Of a stretch of 64,000 nt of DNA, positions 59,065-64,000 are shown in pieces. The stretch is taken from NCBI GenBank assembly GCA_014695195.1, contig JACJNW010000019.1:186001-250000 (forward strand), in the 5' to 3' direction. Within the stretch, counting starts at the first letter, position 1. Every line of letters begins with the position of its first letter. The notes beneath the pieces are model-generated. The model saw only the letters and a program-made list of their open reading frames with translations, had not been told where the DNA came from and searched no databases. The stretch comes from Cyanobacteria bacterium FACHB-DQ100. GTDB taxonomy: Bacteria; Cyanobacteriota; Cyanobacteriia; Leptolyngbyales; Leptolyngbyaceae. The translations under genes were made by a program, and so were the position numbers.

Positions 59065-60003
59065 GTGCTCTCCAATCGTTGTTCGACGAGTCCCGACGTG
59101 CCGCAATCTGATTTATCTTCACAGACTTTTATCGATTGTATTAACAAGGTGAAAGCCCTATCGCTGCAAGAGTTCGATCGACAGATTCAAGCCCATCAAC
59201 TGTATTATCACACCCGCGATCATATTGTTCAGGTGCAGCGTCGATCGCAGTTGATTTATGAAGCCATTCGATCTGATTTGGGCGCAGATGCGATTGATCA
59301 AATTGAACGCTTGCTTGATCTTTGTGTGATTGCTCACGACATGGTGCAAGTGTTTGAAGTGCAGTTACAGCCTCATATGGCGAGATATCGATCGATAGGG
59401 GTGAGTGAGGCAGCAACGCTTGCGCGGTTGTTTGACTATCTTGATTTGCACTGTTCGACGGTTTCGATTGAAGGCGATCGATTCATCATTCGATCTGCGA
59501 TCAATGCAACAATTTGTAATTTTGATGTGAGAGAACAATCTATCTATCAGCCTGCTCTCAATCAACCCGACTTGCCGATCGTCGCTCGGATTCTCGCACT
59601 TGCGGATTTAGGTGCGTTAGGAATAGATGGAATTGCTATGTACAACCGGGAAGGCAGCCTATTGTTTTTGGAAGAAAACTTAGATGTGGTGCCATTGCTG
59701 CAATCCGGTGCGATCGTTGATCTTGAAGTGACTGATCCAGCACTTGCAGAGAACATTCGACAACGCTTGTTAAGACGCTGCCGATTTCAGGTGAATTTGG
59801 CAAAAAGTCGTTTGGCAAGGTTTGAGCAGGAGATCGAAGCGTTCCCGAAGGGTGCGATCGATAAGCTGCGTCGAGAGGTGTTTCAGTATCTAACTGCGGC
59901 AACCATTCAAGAAATAGAAGCGACGACACCGAGGAGCGATCGAACTTCGTTGAAAGAGTTGCTAGAGTTCTTTGACTTTGAACAGTATCTCAGTCGGACT
60001 TAG
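59065..60003 (+). CDS. HD-like phosphohydrolase-type protein
   Basis: This 312-residue protein has features of an HD-domain metalloenzyme: His49 and His53 in YYHTRDH, the His91-Asp92 pair in VIAHDMVQ, and Asp181 in LALADLGALG, spaced as in HD-type phosphohydrolases. The C-terminal third is helical and unassigned. Substrate and product are unknown; nucleotide-derived substrates are typical of the superfamily. No ATG suits the start, so the GTG at 59065 is used, with GTG 59098 as an alternative. It follows the response regulator by 47 bp on the same strand and its end overlaps the next convergent gene by 4 bp. Confidence 0.68.
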   Translation: MLSNRCSTSPDVPQSDLSSQTFIDCINKVKALSLQEFDRQIQAHQLYYHTRDHIVQVQRRSQLIYEAIRSDLGADAIDQIERLLDLCVIAHDMVQVFEVQLQPHMARYRSIGVSEAATLARLFDYLDLHCSTVSIEGDRFIIRSAINATICNFDVREQSIYQPALNQPDLPIVARILALADLGALGIDGIAMYNREGSLLFLEENLDVVPLLQSGAIVDLEVTDPALAENIRQRLLRRCRFQVNLAKSRLARFEQEIEAFPKGAIDKLRREVFQYLTAATIQEIEATTPRSDRTSLKELLEFFDFEQYLSRT

Positions 60004-60410
60004 GCTTCTGGAAGTTGTTTGCGGTTGCGATCGTAAATCTCGTAGAGGCGTTTGAGGACTTCGATCGGGATTCCGGCAACAGGAATGAGAACTTTGATGG
60101 CTTCGATTCCGCCTGCAAAAATGATGCTGAAGATATCTTGCCAGCGTTGCCAATTTTGCGGATCGTTTTGGGGCATGGTGGCGAAGCCGTTGATTAAGAT
60201 ATCGAAGATTTCTGCATCGGTTTTGGTTGGATATCTGGTTCGTAGTTTTGTCAGGAGATGGGCAAGCTGCTGATTCGCTTCAGTGTTTGGCTCTGGAGCA
60301 TGGTTATGCTGAATACCAATTTGATCACCTTGAATCGTGACATCACCGGAGTTAATATTACCGACTTGATTGATGTGGAAAACGGGATGGTTTTTGGAAG
60401 ATTCAGTCAT
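60000..60410 (-). CDS. small protein with Gly/Asn-rich beta tag
   Basis: This 136-residue protein carries at residues about 14-37 the segment NQVGNINSGDVTIQGDQIG followed by IQHNH. A closely similar segment ends the HEAT-repeat protein at 61374-64000. The remainder is predicted to be helical: a linker, a helix with LAHLLTKLRTRYPT, then two more helices (WQDIFSIIFAGGIEAIKVLI and IPIEVLKRLYEIYDRNRK). No known family. The ATG at 60410 is preferred over the longer 60446 frame. The shared tag suggests interaction or a common ligand with the HEAT protein, which is inference. Confidence 0.75.
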   Translation of the reverse strand: MTESSKNHPVFHINQVGNINSGDVTIQGDQIGIQHNHAPEPNTEANQQLAHLLTKLRTRYPTKTDAEIFDILINGFATMPQNDPQNWQRWQDIFSIIFAGGIEAIKVLIPVAGIPIEVLKRLYEIYDRNRKQLPEA

Positions 60411-60546
60411 GAGGTTGAAGAATCGATTTGAATTGGTTTGCAACAATGGCGATTTGAGCCTGCTGGAAGTTTTTCTGATTCAATATGTCCTGGAATGGTT
60501 GGGCGTTTGGGGTTAGATATTAGTAAAAGCGGTTTTAATCATCTTA

Positions 60547-61050
60547 TCAAATTTCAATATCAGAAGCTTCGTTCGCCTGAAGTAGAACTTGAGTATAGAG
60601 TGCAGAACTAACCCTGAAATAGGCTTGCTCGATTAGCGCGTCTAGAACGGGTCGAATTTGAGGAATTAATTGACGTTGTTTTGCAATCAACAGAATGCCT
60701 AAAATTCCAACGATCGAGATTCCTAGTTTTTCGGCTTCTCGTCGTCATTTGCGTTCATCAATCAGGAGTTCATCTGCCTGTTGCTCCAGAACTAAGACGA
60801 TCGCATGACATTCACCTGGATCAAGATTGCAATCTTGCTGTAGAGAAGCTGCCATTGATAGATTGTTAATTGCTTTCGTTTCTATCTAATCAGATGATAA
60901 GACTGTTTGAATGATCGGATTTGTAGCATTGCTCAGTTCTTGTGCGACGATCGCTGGAATTAAAACTCTGCCATAGATCGTTTGAAGTAACCAAAGATGA
61001 TTGACGATCGCAAGATTACACAAAGCGGAAGTGTCGCTCACGATGATCAT
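60547..61050 (-). pseudogene. DUF3368 (PIN-like) toxin, interrupted by two stops
   Basis: Read from the ATG at 61050, the frame encodes MIIVSDTSALCNLAIVNHLW, GRVLIPAIVAQELSN, then a TAG at 60886-60888 where the family usually has Trp (DWIE). It continues in the same frame as IETKAINN, LDPGECHAIVLVLEQ, ADELLIDERK, then TGA at 60745-60747 where a Gly/Ala precedes RREAEKLG, and on through GISIVGILGILLIAKQRQLI to a final TGA at 60547. All blocks are those of DUF3368 toxins (PIN-like nucleases paired with UPF0175). Two point nonsense changes and no frameshift are seen. The start overlaps the antitoxin stop by 4 bp. Confidence 0.85.
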
Positions 61051-61286
61051 AACCAGCCTCGATCGCGAAGATGCTGAACATCTTCTTGGAATTCTTCTAC
61101 GTCATAGTGGACGCAGATTCCGCGATCGCTAATCACTTTTTGAAAATCCATAACGTGCATTTTTGCGATTTTGCTGGCGCTGCCGATGCTGATGCGGTCT
61201 TGCTGGAAGAGAACGATCGCGAGTTCGAGTCGCAGATCGGCTTCGGTTAAGGAGCTGTAGTCAGGAAGATCGATTGTGATTTGCAT
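61047..61286 (-). CDS. UPF0175 antitoxin
   Basis: This 79-residue protein matches the UPF0175 family, with MQITIDLPD at the N-terminus and the helix-turn-helix-like LRLELAIVLFQQDRISIGSASKIAKM at about 18-43 followed by DFQKVISDRGI. UPF0175 proteins are the antitoxin partners of DUF3368 toxins. The reading frame is intact, unlike the toxin gene that follows with a 4-bp overlap. It may now neutralise toxins encoded elsewhere, or be a remnant; the gap 61287-61373 holds nothing recognisable. Confidence 0.9.
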   Translation of the reverse strand: MQITIDLPDYSSLTEADLRLELAIVLFQQDRISIGSASKIAKMHVMDFQKVISDRGICVHYDVEEFQEDVQHLRDRGWL

Positions 61287-61373: not shown

Positions 61374-64000
61374 TTATGGATGATTGTGTTGCTCACCGAT
61401 TTGATTGCCTTCGATGTGAACAGTGCCAGGGTTGAGATTTCCTACAGATCCGATGTTGTAAATGGTGGTAGGTGAGCGATCGTTGTTTTGGGGAGTTTGT
61501 CGATCGACTTTCTGTGCTTCTAGATAAGCTTGATAGATTTCGTAGTTGTAGTATTTGCAGTTCTCTTGGATGGCAAGGATGACACGAAAGACATCTTGAC
61601 CGGAATCCGTTGGAATTAAGGTGAGGAGATGGGAAAGATGTTGAGCGATCGTGTCTGCGTATTTCTTTGCAACCTCGAGTAATTCGGCTGCTGCCATCCC
61701 ACGCACATTAGAGTCAGAATCTTTTAACAGCTTGAGCAAACCATCTACTGCTTGCTCAGTTCCAATCGTTCCTAATGCCGATGCTGCACTCCTACGCACA
61801 TTAGGGTCAGAATCTTCCAACCGCTTGAGCAAACCATTTACTGCTCGCTCAGTTCCAATCGTGCCTAATGCCGATGCTGCCCTCCTACGCACATCAGGCT
61901 CAGAATCTAACAGCTTGAGCAAACCATCTACTGCTTGCTCAGTTCCAATCGTTCCTAATGCCGATGCTGCCATCCTACGCACATCAGGGTCAGAGTCTTC
62001 CAACCGCTTGAGCAAACCATCTACTGCTCGCTCAGTTCCAATCGTGCCTAATGCCGATGCTGCCATCCTACGCACATCAGGGTCAGAGTCTTCCAACCGC
62101 TTGAGCAAACCATCTACTGCTCGCTCAGTTCCAATCGTGCCTAATGCCTCTGCTGCCCTCCAACGCACATAAGGCTCAGAATCTTCCAACCGCTTGAGCA
62201 AACCATCGACTGCTTGCTCAGTTCCAATCGTGCCTAATGCCGATGCTGCACTCCTACACACATAAAAGTCAGAATCTTCCAACCGCTTGAGCAAACCATC
62301 TACTGCTCGCTCAGTTCCAATCGTGCCTAATGCCTCTGCTGCACTCCAACGCACATAAGGCTCAGAATCTAACAGCTTGAGCAAACCATCTACTGCTCGC
62401 TCGGTTCCAATCGTGCCTAATGCCGCTGCTGCACTCATACGCATACCAGGGTCAGAATCTTCCAACCGCTTGAGCAAACCATCTACTGCTTGCTCAGTTC
62501 CAATCGTGCCTAATGCCGATGCTGCACTCCAACGCACATCAGGGTCAGAATCTTCTAACCGCTTGAGCAAACCATCTACTGCTTGCTCAGTTCCAATCGT
62601 GCCTAATGCCTCTGCTGCACTCCTACGCACATTAGAGTCAGAATCTTCCAACCGCTTGAGCAAACCATCGACTGCTTGCTCAGTTCCAATCGTGCCTAAT
62701 GCCGATGCTGCACTCATACGCACATCAGGCTCAGAATCTTCTAACCGCTTGAGCAAACCATCTACTGCTTGCTCAGCTCCAATCGTGCCTAATGCCGATG
62801 CTGCCCTCGCACGCACATCAGGCTCAGAATCTTCCAACCGCTTGAGCAAACCATCGACTGCTCGCTCAGTTCCAATCGTGCCTAATGCCGATGCTGCCCT
62901 CCTACGCACATCAGGCTCAGAATCTAACAGCTTGAGCAAACCATCTACTGCTTGCTCAGTTCCAATCGTGCCTAATGCCGATGCTGCCCTCATACACACA
63001 TAAAAGTCAGAATCTTCCAACAGCTTGAGCAAACCATCTACTGCTTGCTCAGTTCCAATCGTGCCTAATGCCGATGCTGCACTCATACGCACATCAGGCT
63101 CAGAATCTTCCAACAGCTTGAGCAAACCATCTACTGCTTGCTCGGTTCCAATCGTGCCTAATGCCTCTGCTGCACTCCAACGCACATTAGGGTCAGAATC
63201 TTCCAACCGCTTGAGCAAACCATCTACTGCTCGCTCGGTTCCAATCGTGCCTAATGCCGATGCTGCACTCCTACACACATAAAAGTCAGAATCTTCCAAC
63301 CGCTTGAGCAAACCATCTACTGCTTGCTCAGTTCCAATCGTGCCTAGTGCCTCTGCTGCACTCCAACGCACATAAGGCTCAGAATCTTCCAACAGCTTGC
63401 TCAAGCTATTAATGGCAATATCCGATCTCGTCTCTTCCAAAAACTTAACTTTTAGCCACGTCGGTACTTCCAGCGCATCCACACATTCAACCGTCCGCGC
63501 CTGAAACTCTGACCTCACTTCCCCCGCCAATCTTGCTCCCAACTTTCGATCGACCCCTAACGCCCATTCCACCACCCGAATCGCCAGCGCTTCATCTTCT
63601 ACCGTTGCCAGCATTAACGCCAATGGCTCCGTCCACTTCAAATAGTTGAAATAGTTTTGCTTGAGTTTGTCCCCCGTCAAATCTCGTAGCTGCTCCAATA
63701 GTGCTTCTGCTGCATAAAATTCCTGAATCAGTTGATGCCGAAACTCCAATTCTTCACGGTTCGTCCCGACCTGAATCAAATGATACTTCTGCAAATCCCG
63801 CAAACACTTCCGCGCAAAATCCTCTGCATACTGCACTTTTCCATCTAGAAATTGCGCGATCGCTCTCACCGCCTCTTCTCTCCGAATCGCTACTCGAAAC
63901 TCTGTCGGCTTCTCTCCCTGCATCATCACCCAAGCCAACTGTTGCAGCACAGGCTTCCACCAAGCCCGGTCGCTCTCAATCCTCACATCGTCTTTCAAAT
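61374..64000 (-). CDS. HEAT-repeat protein, probably NACHT/STAND type (5' end outside the window)
   Basis: The frame is open to the right edge, where no ATG precedes the first residues, so the N-terminus (and any NTPase domain) lies outside. The visible N-terminal part (about 110 residues) has KCLRDLQKYHLIQV and FRHQLIQEFYAAE, typical of the winged-helix region that follows NACHT domains. Residues about 200-780 are HEAT repeats: 18 almost identical 30/31-residue units of type DSDPDVRWSAASALGTIGTE plus a degenerate last one. After it a helical stretch leads to a C-terminal tag, IGSVGNLNPGTVHIEGNQIG then EQHNH. This looks like a STAND-type sensor of a bacterial conflict system. The NACHT assignment is inferred. 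Confidence 0.85.
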   Translation of the reverse strand, partial: LKDDVRIESDRAWWKPVLQQLAWVMMQGEKPTEFRVAIRREEAVRAIAQFLDGKVQYAEDFARKCLRDLQKYHLIQVGTNREELEFRHQLIQEFYAAEALLEQLRDLTGDKLKQNYFNYLKWTEPLALMLATVEDEALAIRVVEWALGVDRKLGARLAGEVRSEFQARTVECVDALEVPTWLKVKFLEETRSDIAINSLSKLLEDSEPYVRWSAAEALGTIGTEQAVDGLLKRLEDSDFYVCRSAASALGTIGTERAVDGLLKRLEDSDPNVRWSAAEALGTIGTEQAVDGLLKLLEDSEPDVRMSAASALGTIGTEQAVDGLLKLLEDSDFYVCMRAASALGTIGTEQAVDGLLKLLDSEPDVRRRAASALGTIGTERAVDGLLKRLEDSEPDVRARAASALGTIGAEQAVDGLLKRLEDSEPDVRMSAASALGTIGTEQAVDGLLKRLEDSDSNVRRSAAEALGTIGTEQAVDGLLKRLEDSDPDVRWSAASALGTIGTEQAVDGLLKRLEDSDPGMRMSAAAALGTIGTERAVDGLLKLLDSEPYVRWSAAEALGTIGTERAVDGLLKRLEDSDFYVCRSAASALGTIGTEQAVDGLLKRLEDSEPYVRWRAAEALGTIGTERAVDGLLKRLEDSDPDVRRMAASALGTIGTERAVDGLLKRLEDSDPDVRRMAASALGTIGTEQAVDGLLKLLDSEPDVRRRAASALGTIGTERAVNGLLKRLEDSDPNVRRSAASALGTIGTEQAVDGLLKLLKDSDSNVRGMAAAELLEVAKKYADTIAQHLSHLLTLIPTDSGQDVFRVILAIQENCKYYNYEIYQAYLEAQKVDRQTPQNNDRSPTTIYNIGSVGNLNPGTVHIEGNQIGEQHNHP
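61731..63395. repeat. 18 tandem 93/90-bp units coding HEAT repeats
   Basis: The start marker CTTGAGCAAACCATC recurs on the plus strand from 61731, at 61824, 61914 and so on to a divergent copy at 63396. The total of 1,665 bp equals fifteen 93-bp and three 90-bp units. The 90-bp units lack one codon (LLDSE instead of LEDSE). Differences between units cluster in the codons around DS(D/E)xxV(R/C)xxAA, while the ALGTIGTE and AVDGLL blocks are almost constant. The array is wholly inside the coding region. Confidence 0.93.

Follow-up and report, generated by a model that had tools for sequence, protein, structure and literature searches.

Why would a receptor gene carry eighteen nearly identical repeats that differ from one another mainly at the same five codons? 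The question is raised by a 64,000-nucleotide stretch of the genome of Cyanobacteria bacterium FACHB-DQ100 (contig JACJNW010000019.1, positions 186,001 to 250,000), hereafter the window, at the end of which lies a gene for a NACHT-HEAT receptor of the STAND or NOD-like receptor (NLR) type. We found that amino-acid change is concentrated at these five codons across the receptor family, that the codons correspond to positions randomised in the alphaRep binders, that the arrays turn over between close relatives, and that the receptor ends in a short motif matched by one in a neighboring gene. We consider it probable that the gene encodes a bacterial NLR with a fast-evolving, alphaRep-like HEAT sensor and plug-in effectors. 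The features of the sensor are as follows.

61374-64000, minus strand: C-terminal part of the NACHT-HEAT (STAND/NLR-type) receptor gene, an 874-codon frame inside the window.
61722-63386, minus strand: homogenised HEAT array of 18 full units, with hypervariable codons 4, 5, 8, 9 and 12 in each unit.
62925-63014, 62370-62459 and 61908-61997, minus strand: the 90-bp units of the array, one residue short before the next DS.
61629-61721, minus strand: degenerate last (19th) HEAT unit, a C-cap closing the solenoid.

A prior reading of this DNA, made from the sequence only, had reported 18 tandem units of 93 or 90 bp at 61731-63395. This is the same array in another phase, and we confirmed the count: 15 units are of 93 bp and three (units 5, 11 and 16) of 90 bp. 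Tandem Repeats Finder returned a period of 93 with 18.5 copies, 90% matches and a score of 2687. Mean pairwise identity between units was 0.91 for DNA and 0.83 for protein, with all 18 unit cores (90 bases) mutually distinct. Numbering each unit from its D-S as positions 1 and 2, we found the main varying residues at positions 4 (P/F/S), 5 (Y/N/D/G), 8 (W/R/M/A), 9 (S/R/M) and 12 (E/S/A). Further variation occurred at positions 3 (E/D), 7 (R/C), 21 (Q/R) and 29 (R/L), with single deviations at 6, 19 and 24. Positions 4, 5, 8, 9 and 12 are the top five of the 30 codons and the best among 142,506 five-codon sets (exact p 7e-6). The sequence-only reading had variation limited to a few positions on one face; concentration was borne out, with 65% of the nonsynonymous differences between units at the five codons, but strict confinement was not, as the other 35% fell elsewhere. 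Measured as uncorrected proportions of nonsynonymous and synonymous differences (pN and pS) on recombining repeats, pN was 0.33 versus a pS of 0 at the five codons, and pN/pS was 0.49 at the remaining 25. The 18 units hold 13 distinct five-residue sets, and linkage between variable positions reached p<0.02 only for 4-7 and 5-12 (36 pairs, without correction). For a higher-order unit, Tandem Repeats Finder suggested a 462-bp period and lag 11 was slightly raised (0.943 versus 0.897-0.927), with lag 5 flat; we claim none. Antisense open reading frames (ORFs) across the array were taken as mechanical frames.

The five positions were first recognised in the window array, and arrays at other loci served as an independent test. 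We assembled 93 receptor loci, designated by L numbers below, of which 84 were non-redundant, 77 of these had a closed 3' end, and 71 had at least 600 bases downstream. Array statistics were computed for the 43 of 84 loci in which at least five units agreed with the consensus of their own array at 18/30 or better, units failing this rule being excluded from pN and pS; 35 of the 43 were homogenised (mean unit DNA identity at least 0.75). The five positions held 29-70% (mean 47%) of nonsynonymous differences in the homogenised arrays, with 5/30 expected. In an exact test that takes the 30 codons as exchangeable, the concentration was significant at p<0.01 in 33 of the 35 homogenised arrays and in 39 of all 43. 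Clustering at 80% NACHT identity left 19 representatives, 18 of which gave p<0.01.

One alternative is that the array is a scaffold that has undergone tandem repeat expansion, in which recent duplicates vary at the five positions through relaxed constraint and no selection for binding acts. We think this fairly unlikely. Recent duplication is real, given the 91% DNA identity of the units, and the same positions vary generally in this repeat family, as the design of alphaRep indicates (PMC3754942). Synonymous change, however, is not enriched at the five codons, which hold a mean of 17% of it, near the 5/30 expectation. The sequence-only reading had suggested comparing synonymous and nonsynonymous change, and the two were unequal: pN exceeded pS at the five codons in 33 of the 35 homogenised arrays and in 19/19 cluster representatives, and at the other codons in 5 of the 35. 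Mean pN and pS over the 35 arrays were 0.378 and 0.214 at the five codons, and 0.103 and 0.176 elsewhere. Six helix-A positions presumed exposed (20, 21, 24, 25, 28 and 29) had a pN below that of the five codons in 35/35 arrays.

The same positions are known from protein engineering. A PDB sequence search with the array gave 22 matches at 1e-10; the best was a synthetic fusion protein with alphaRep-like units (2.5e-106), the second is named alphaRep (7.2e-81), and most of the others carry the name of alphaRep or of alphaRep binders. AlphaFold, run without an alignment, modelled the array as a regular two-helix solenoid (predicted local distance difference test score, pLDDT, of 71-95 by ten-residue block, mostly above 80, with a tail below 50), and Foldseek with this model placed alphaRep at ranks 1-3, followed mainly by generic HEAT proteins. 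Positions 18, 19, 22, 23, 26 and 30 are randomised in alphaRep, having been chosen as variable from a natural repeat collection, with proline commonest at 18 and small residues at 23 (PMC3754942). By alignment and reading, the spacing xx-VR-xx-AA-x maps alphaRep positions 18, 19, 22, 23 and 26 onto unit positions 4, 5, 8, 9 and 12, making the hypervariable positions of the window array five of the six randomised ones in the same 31-residue HEAT unit. The window units likewise prefer Pro at 4 (alphaRep 18) and Ser at 9 (alphaRep 23). The sixth randomised position (30, unit position 16) is an invariant Thr in 18/18 window units. AlphaRep is designed, whereas the window array is natural and part of an NLR. 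In the A3/bA3-2 alphaRep complex, contact is made by the concave faces that bear the variable residues (PMC3754942), and by this correspondence the variable positions of the window array would lie on a concave, target-contacting face.

The array belongs to a larger protein. From its first ATG the receptor ORF has 1179 codons and extends 913 bases past the window, with ~305 N-terminal codons outside it; we read the N-terminus from the parent contig. Judged against relatives, the start is more likely Met36 than the first ATG. Pfam matches to NACHT (1.4e-8, above the gathering score), HEAT_PBS (3.6e-113) and HEAT_2 agree with the initial description of a STAND-like HEAT protein. A Walker A motif (GRPGSGKS) and a Walker B motif (LLLFDGVNE) both lie outside the window, and Walker A and loose Walker B patterns are present at 84/84 family loci, the window receptor included. 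The superstructure-forming repeats sit after the NACHT switch, as seen in the HEAT_2 and HEAT_PBS matches and the solenoid model. NCBIfam returned HEAT models, all below cut-off except DVU0298_fam, and we took these matches as repeat-driven.

Behind the array, the receptor and its surroundings contain the following.

61464-61553, minus strand: linker following the array (YYNYEIYQAYLEAQKVDRQTPQNNDRSPTT), which can be recognised in many close orthologues.
61377-61463, minus strand: motif M1 at the receptor C-terminus (IYNIGSVGNLNPGTVHIEGNQIGEQHNHP), within a tail modelled with low confidence.
61047-61286, minus strand: UPF0175 (antitoxin-like) gene (Pfam 7.5e-19), between receptor and effector.
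60000-60446, minus strand: putative effector gene, 148 aa, with a glycine-rich hydrophobic stretch (maximum 19-residue hydropathy 1.99).
60300-60383, minus strand: effector-side motif M1 (VFHINQVGNINSGDVTIQGDQIGIQHNH), aligning with the receptor C-terminus at a score of 93.
60003-60287, minus strand: effector domain E1, sharing 62.5% identity across 120 aa with the neighbor of the Myxacorys receptor.

The post-array linker reads YYNYEIYQAYLEAQK..DRQTPQNNDRS, and the variable end comes after it. In the window receptor the terminal sequence is VGNLNPGTVHIEGNQIGEQHNHP (M1), and near the start of the 60000-60446 gene stands FHINQVGNINSGDVTIQGDQIGIQHNH, also M1, running into a domain without a Pfam match; this putative effector had no Pfam, PADLOC or convincing NCBIfam match. 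In Myxacorys, the receptor end and the effector start are both of another class, M3 (NFYAPVDTVVGNVEGN and NFNAPVSGVAGNVEGD). The E1 domain is thus paired with M1 in the window and with M3 in Myxacorys, so that the motifs of receptor and neighbor switch together. Neither the receptor motif nor the matching neighbor had been part of the sequence-only reading.

We labelled 22 receptors as ending in a short motif, of which 21 had a testable neighborhood (L054 did not); L045 and L047 end inside the motif and were left unlabelled. Counting an alignment score of at least 50 as a match, 19 of the 21 had a neighbor of their own with a matching motif. Neighborhoods of other loci of the same class matched in 66/72 comparisons, those of a different class in 16/348, and those of motif-less loci in 23/1050. 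At L048, one of the 19, the score came via linker residues; that locus also has an M2 neighbor. By reading, effector domains reappear in combination with different motifs: E1 occurs with M1 and M3, a KHYLEES type with M1, M2 and M5, and a VGEHFAEN type with M2, M3 and M5. Pfam on six other small motif-bearing effectors gave no matches or weak ones below cut-off, which we rejected.

Other receptors end in recognisable domains: TIR in L046 (Pfam 1.5e-16), a CHAT protease in L055 (2.3e-33) and a metallophosphoesterase in L146 (8.9e-10). Still others end in neighbor-like small domains (L042, L105, L108 and L115, by reading), in a short motif, or in nothing nameable; a domain of the E1 kind terminates the L108 receptor itself (by reading), and a like domain also ends L115. 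These ends bear on a second alternative, that the array is a scaffold for self proteins, in the manner of a phycobilisome lyase, and that the neighbor's motif is a simple docking peptide, not a death signal. HEAT_PBS repeats do include relatives of CpcE, CpcF and NblB, whose NCBIfam models matched below cut-off, but the NACHT fusion, the exchangeable TIR, CHAT and metallophosphoesterase C-termini and the fast turnover described below are unlike a housekeeping scaffold. We regard this account as improbable.

Several further observations concern receptor ends and their neighbors. In L095 (G006:C298, 1966-3554) ~150 N-terminal residues of the receptor remain and lead directly into the C-terminal linker and M1, the array and most of the NACHT domain being gone; its neighbor is the same divergent 120-aa gene as in the window species. 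L046 (G003), with its own C-terminal TIR, has an E1 remnant downstream (query residues 108-147, 62% identical, in a 50-aa frame). The contigs of L045 and L047 (G004; contigs of L052 and L056; Cyanobacteria bacterium FACHB-63) both break within M1 motif DNA, which suggests that the FACHB-63 genome holds near-identical copies of the motif and the sequence following it. A further motif class (DLRGANIGNLAETVQGDQI) is N-terminal in a TIR protein and in a short ORF (L048:1473-1859 and L096:2276-2878); it resembles the receptor end of L130 and, loosely, the published BASS3 peptide. At L043, L048, L113 and L119, receptor ends read NFPNATEVKIFENVDxYHE and neighbor starts NFPNAQKVQIFEQVDxYIE. This class looks more helix-like than M1, and coupling peptides may not all be of amyloid type. 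At L162, L168 and L169 the receptor frame stops partway through the array, and further HEAT units appear early in the following ORF. The receptor is perhaps split or frameshifted at these loci, and the HEAT-array matches that they gave are resumed arrays, not motif pairs.

The window gene has many relatives. With the NACHT core (P0001) as query, and with the query or centre genome counted where it was searched, we found relatives in 22/42 genomes of the order (E<=1e-60), in at least 14/386 genomes of an even phylum sample (1e-120), in 13/20 genomes of one family (1e-110) and in at least 49/217 genomes of another (1e-120). The phylum and second-family counts are lower bounds, with 4 and 7 candidates, respectively, scored per genome. 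Relatives include Phormidium tanganyikae, Myxacorys californica, Nostoc, Tolypothrix, Calothrix and Coleofasciculus. The NACHT cores of the window and Myxacorys receptors share 74% protein identity. Unit identity within the array was 0.91 for the window and 0.90 for Myxacorys; between the two it was 0.63, the closest of six other arrays compared.

The order of units in related strains, a comparison proposed in the sequence-only reading, could be followed between different species, the window species being represented by one genome. Unit order was not kept in the seven pairs whose genes are 94-98% identical in DNA across their first 1400 bases: the pairs had 0-2 unit types in common, never two consecutive. 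L161 and L164 are one locus in two species, with DNA identities of 98.4% in the upstream flank, 95.7% over the first 1400 bases and 91.5% at the gene end and downstream; they share 2/17 distinct unit types, and no two consecutive units match. L130 and L131, with 97.6% identity in the first 1400 bases, 96% in protein and dissimilar flanks, have one unit type in common. None is shared between L055 and L133, L058 or L137, between L058 and L060, or between L133 and L137, pairs with first 1400 bases 94-95% and gene ends 94-97% identical. An eighth pair, L128/L130 (87.9%), also shares none, and arrays differ in all eight pairs.

Mis-assembly of the array from short reads, with unit number and order unreliable, could imitate such differences. 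The window genome is a 44-contig draft, and contigs of some relatives end inside the array or motif (L045, L047, L057 and L059). Yet the reading frame is intact through all window units, each of which is distinct, and comparable arrays on large single contigs likewise have no common unit type: the L055 array comes from a plasmid whose record title calls it nearly complete and that of L137 from a contig of 9.0 Mb, so turnover is not merely draft-assembly noise. An assembly artefact is thus very improbable. Least credible of all is a target of a diversity-generating retroelement (DGR), in which an error-prone reverse transcriptase would write the variable codons: in multicellular bacteria, STAND proteins are indeed among those that DGRs diversify (PMC10907252), and the window genome has one reverse-transcriptase domain match, but this match is partial (positions 123-205 of 205, in a 110-aa frame) and on another contig, a search of the assembled genome with a 93-bp unit recovered the 18 array copies and nothing else, with no template repeat at that sensitivity, and variation is distributed over 18 internal tandem units. 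With no outside unit copy and one partial reverse-transcriptase domain, repeat recombination with selection fits better.

How does the window receptor compare with described systems? The closest parallel for the sensor is fungal. The same regime is seen in the WD, ANK and TPR repeats of NLRs with high internal conservation (PMC4986451), and highly conserved WD40 repeats are reported to be most frequent in fungi and bacteria, HEAT examples being known from fungi (PMC12222747). Like the window receptor, the HET-E/HET-D/HNWD, ANK and TPR NLRs of Podospora anserina combine a STAND switch with a sensor of near-identical repeats (PMC4986451, PMC12222747, PMC9815663), and in fungal NLRs, as in the window array, each repeat has a few hypervariable positions and the units turn over and evolve in concert. 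The fungal hypervariable positions have been mapped to the concave or ligand face, which in the window array alphaRep equivalence would predict. Unlike fungal NLRs, the window receptor has HEAT units of the alphaRep subgroup and comes from a cyanobacterium, and its signalling motif or effector is C-terminal, behind the sensor, where the fungal one is N-terminal. The unit identity of 83% for protein and 91% for DNA compares with fungal criteria of >85% (PMC4986451), which the protein value narrowly misses, and of >80% to 100% for HNWD (PMC12222747), a range into which it falls.

For the C-terminal motif, the nearest system is bacterial amyloid signalling (BASS/Bell), in which the motif stands at the NLR N-terminus and the effector C-terminus (PMC7889193, PMC8086366). 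As in the window pair, an NLR and a nearby small effector have a common short G/N/Q-rich motif, of which there are several classes (PMC7889193, PMC8086366, PMC12261475); as in the receptor family, TIR and CHAT also serve as effectors, and the hosts are multicellular bacteria. The topology of the window system is inverted, the NLR bearing the motif C-terminally and the effector N-terminally, and its small effector domains, where tested across the receptor family, gave no convincing Pfam match. Bell domains are helical bundles with a hydrophobic helix; the low-confidence model of the window effector contains helices, and its sequence a hydrophobic stretch. Because the motif placement differs from that of BASS, we did not file the window system as BASS. 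By analogy, the receptor motif may work like BASS, the C-terminal plug resembling fungal and bacterial NLR amyloid motifs in composition and genomic logic (PMC7889193, PMC8086366, PMC9815663). Effector-associated domains (EADs) of multicellular prokaryotes are likewise homotypic adaptors, carried at either end both by a core component and by the effectors beside it (PMC7159879). EADs are folded small domains, whereas the window-family motifs are short (~20-28 residues) and lie in the low-confidence tails of the two window models. DGR-diversified STAND sensors also join a STAND protein to a diversified sensor in multicellular bacteria (PMC10907252), but they diversify C-type lectin domains, whereas the window array diversifies HEAT units, apparently by repeat recombination and point change. 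In a search of the open-access literature, with most subscription papers outside it, we found no description of bacterial NLR HEAT arrays with selected alphaRep positions and none of an inverted C-terminal pairing of receptor and effector motifs.

Taking the gene as a bacterial NLR with an alphaRep-like sensor and plug-in effectors, we propose the following mechanism. The NACHT ATPase would act as switch and the HEAT solenoid as sensor. Invariant residues of the 31-residue unit would keep the fold, and positions 4, 5, 8, 9 and 12, on the second helix, would point into the concave face and recognise a ligand, probably an invader protein. Recombination among near-identical units would expand, contract and shuffle the array and keep its scaffold uniform, with selection favoring amino-acid change at the reading positions. 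Ligand binding would cause the receptor to oligomerise and its C-terminal motifs to cluster, and the clustered motif might then recruit the matching N-terminal motif of the small protein encoded nearby, or template it in an amyloid-type manner. This would activate the helical, perhaps membrane-active domain of the small protein, killing or arresting the cell in what would be a defence response; by analogy, its hydrophobic glycine-rich stretch suggests action on the membrane.

Several points weigh against this proposal. No ligand, phage or phenotype is linked to the receptor, and PADLOC gave HEAT-driven and weak ATPase matches and named no defence system. Two homogenised arrays missed p<0.01 (L155, 0.016; L169, 0.072), as did two of the eight less homogenised ones (L107, 0.076; L148, 0.016). 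The hypervariable positions could be the most tolerant sites of the unit; a mean pN/pS of ~1.8 at the five codons, although an uncorrected estimate on recombining repeats, argues against pure relaxation. Two of the 21 motif-ended receptors, L141 and L053, have no matching neighbor within 3.5 kb, and the motif classes were assigned by hand from receptor tails. In a label-free ranking, a locus's own neighborhood came first in 5/71 loci only, which we attribute to motif classes being common to several loci; three of these five are not motif pairs (L168 and L169, HEAT arrays; L048, linker residues). The effector model has low confidence (mean pLDDT 54), with helices and the hydrophobic stretch present. 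Finally, the effector gene lies ~930 bases from the receptor, with the UPF0175 gene and broken PIN-like frames between, so co-transcription of receptor and effector is not assured. On balance, the reading of the array as a fast-evolving ligand-recognition solenoid is supported; that it recognises a ligand is what we infer.

The intervening UPF0175 gene is probably a passenger. It is followed by the broken PIN-like frames (by reading), the two together occupying 60547-61286 on the minus strand, and UPF0175-like gene pairs recur near the receptors of relatives, at L044:3790-4517 (DUF3368 member confirmed) and, by reading, at L042 and L048.

A more tentative idea, which we hold possible without favoring it, is that this cyanobacterial NLR clade is a natural alphaRep library, in which recombination of HEAT units on a constant scaffold outpaces species divergence, perhaps within populations, and in which an interchangeable, self-templating C-terminal peptide plugs any receptor into any effector bearing the same peptide. 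If so, the clade would possess a two-cassette, antibody-like innate repertoire that needs no retroelement. The findings carry a principle known from fungi, that of immune receptors built from near-identical repeats with a few selected reading positions, over to bacteria and to HEAT repeats. As the selected positions coincide with those of a binder-engineering platform, the specificity code should be readable and binding testable by existing methods, and the lock-step motif pairs of receptor and effector offer a genomic route to finding and pairing uncharacterised bacterial death effectors.

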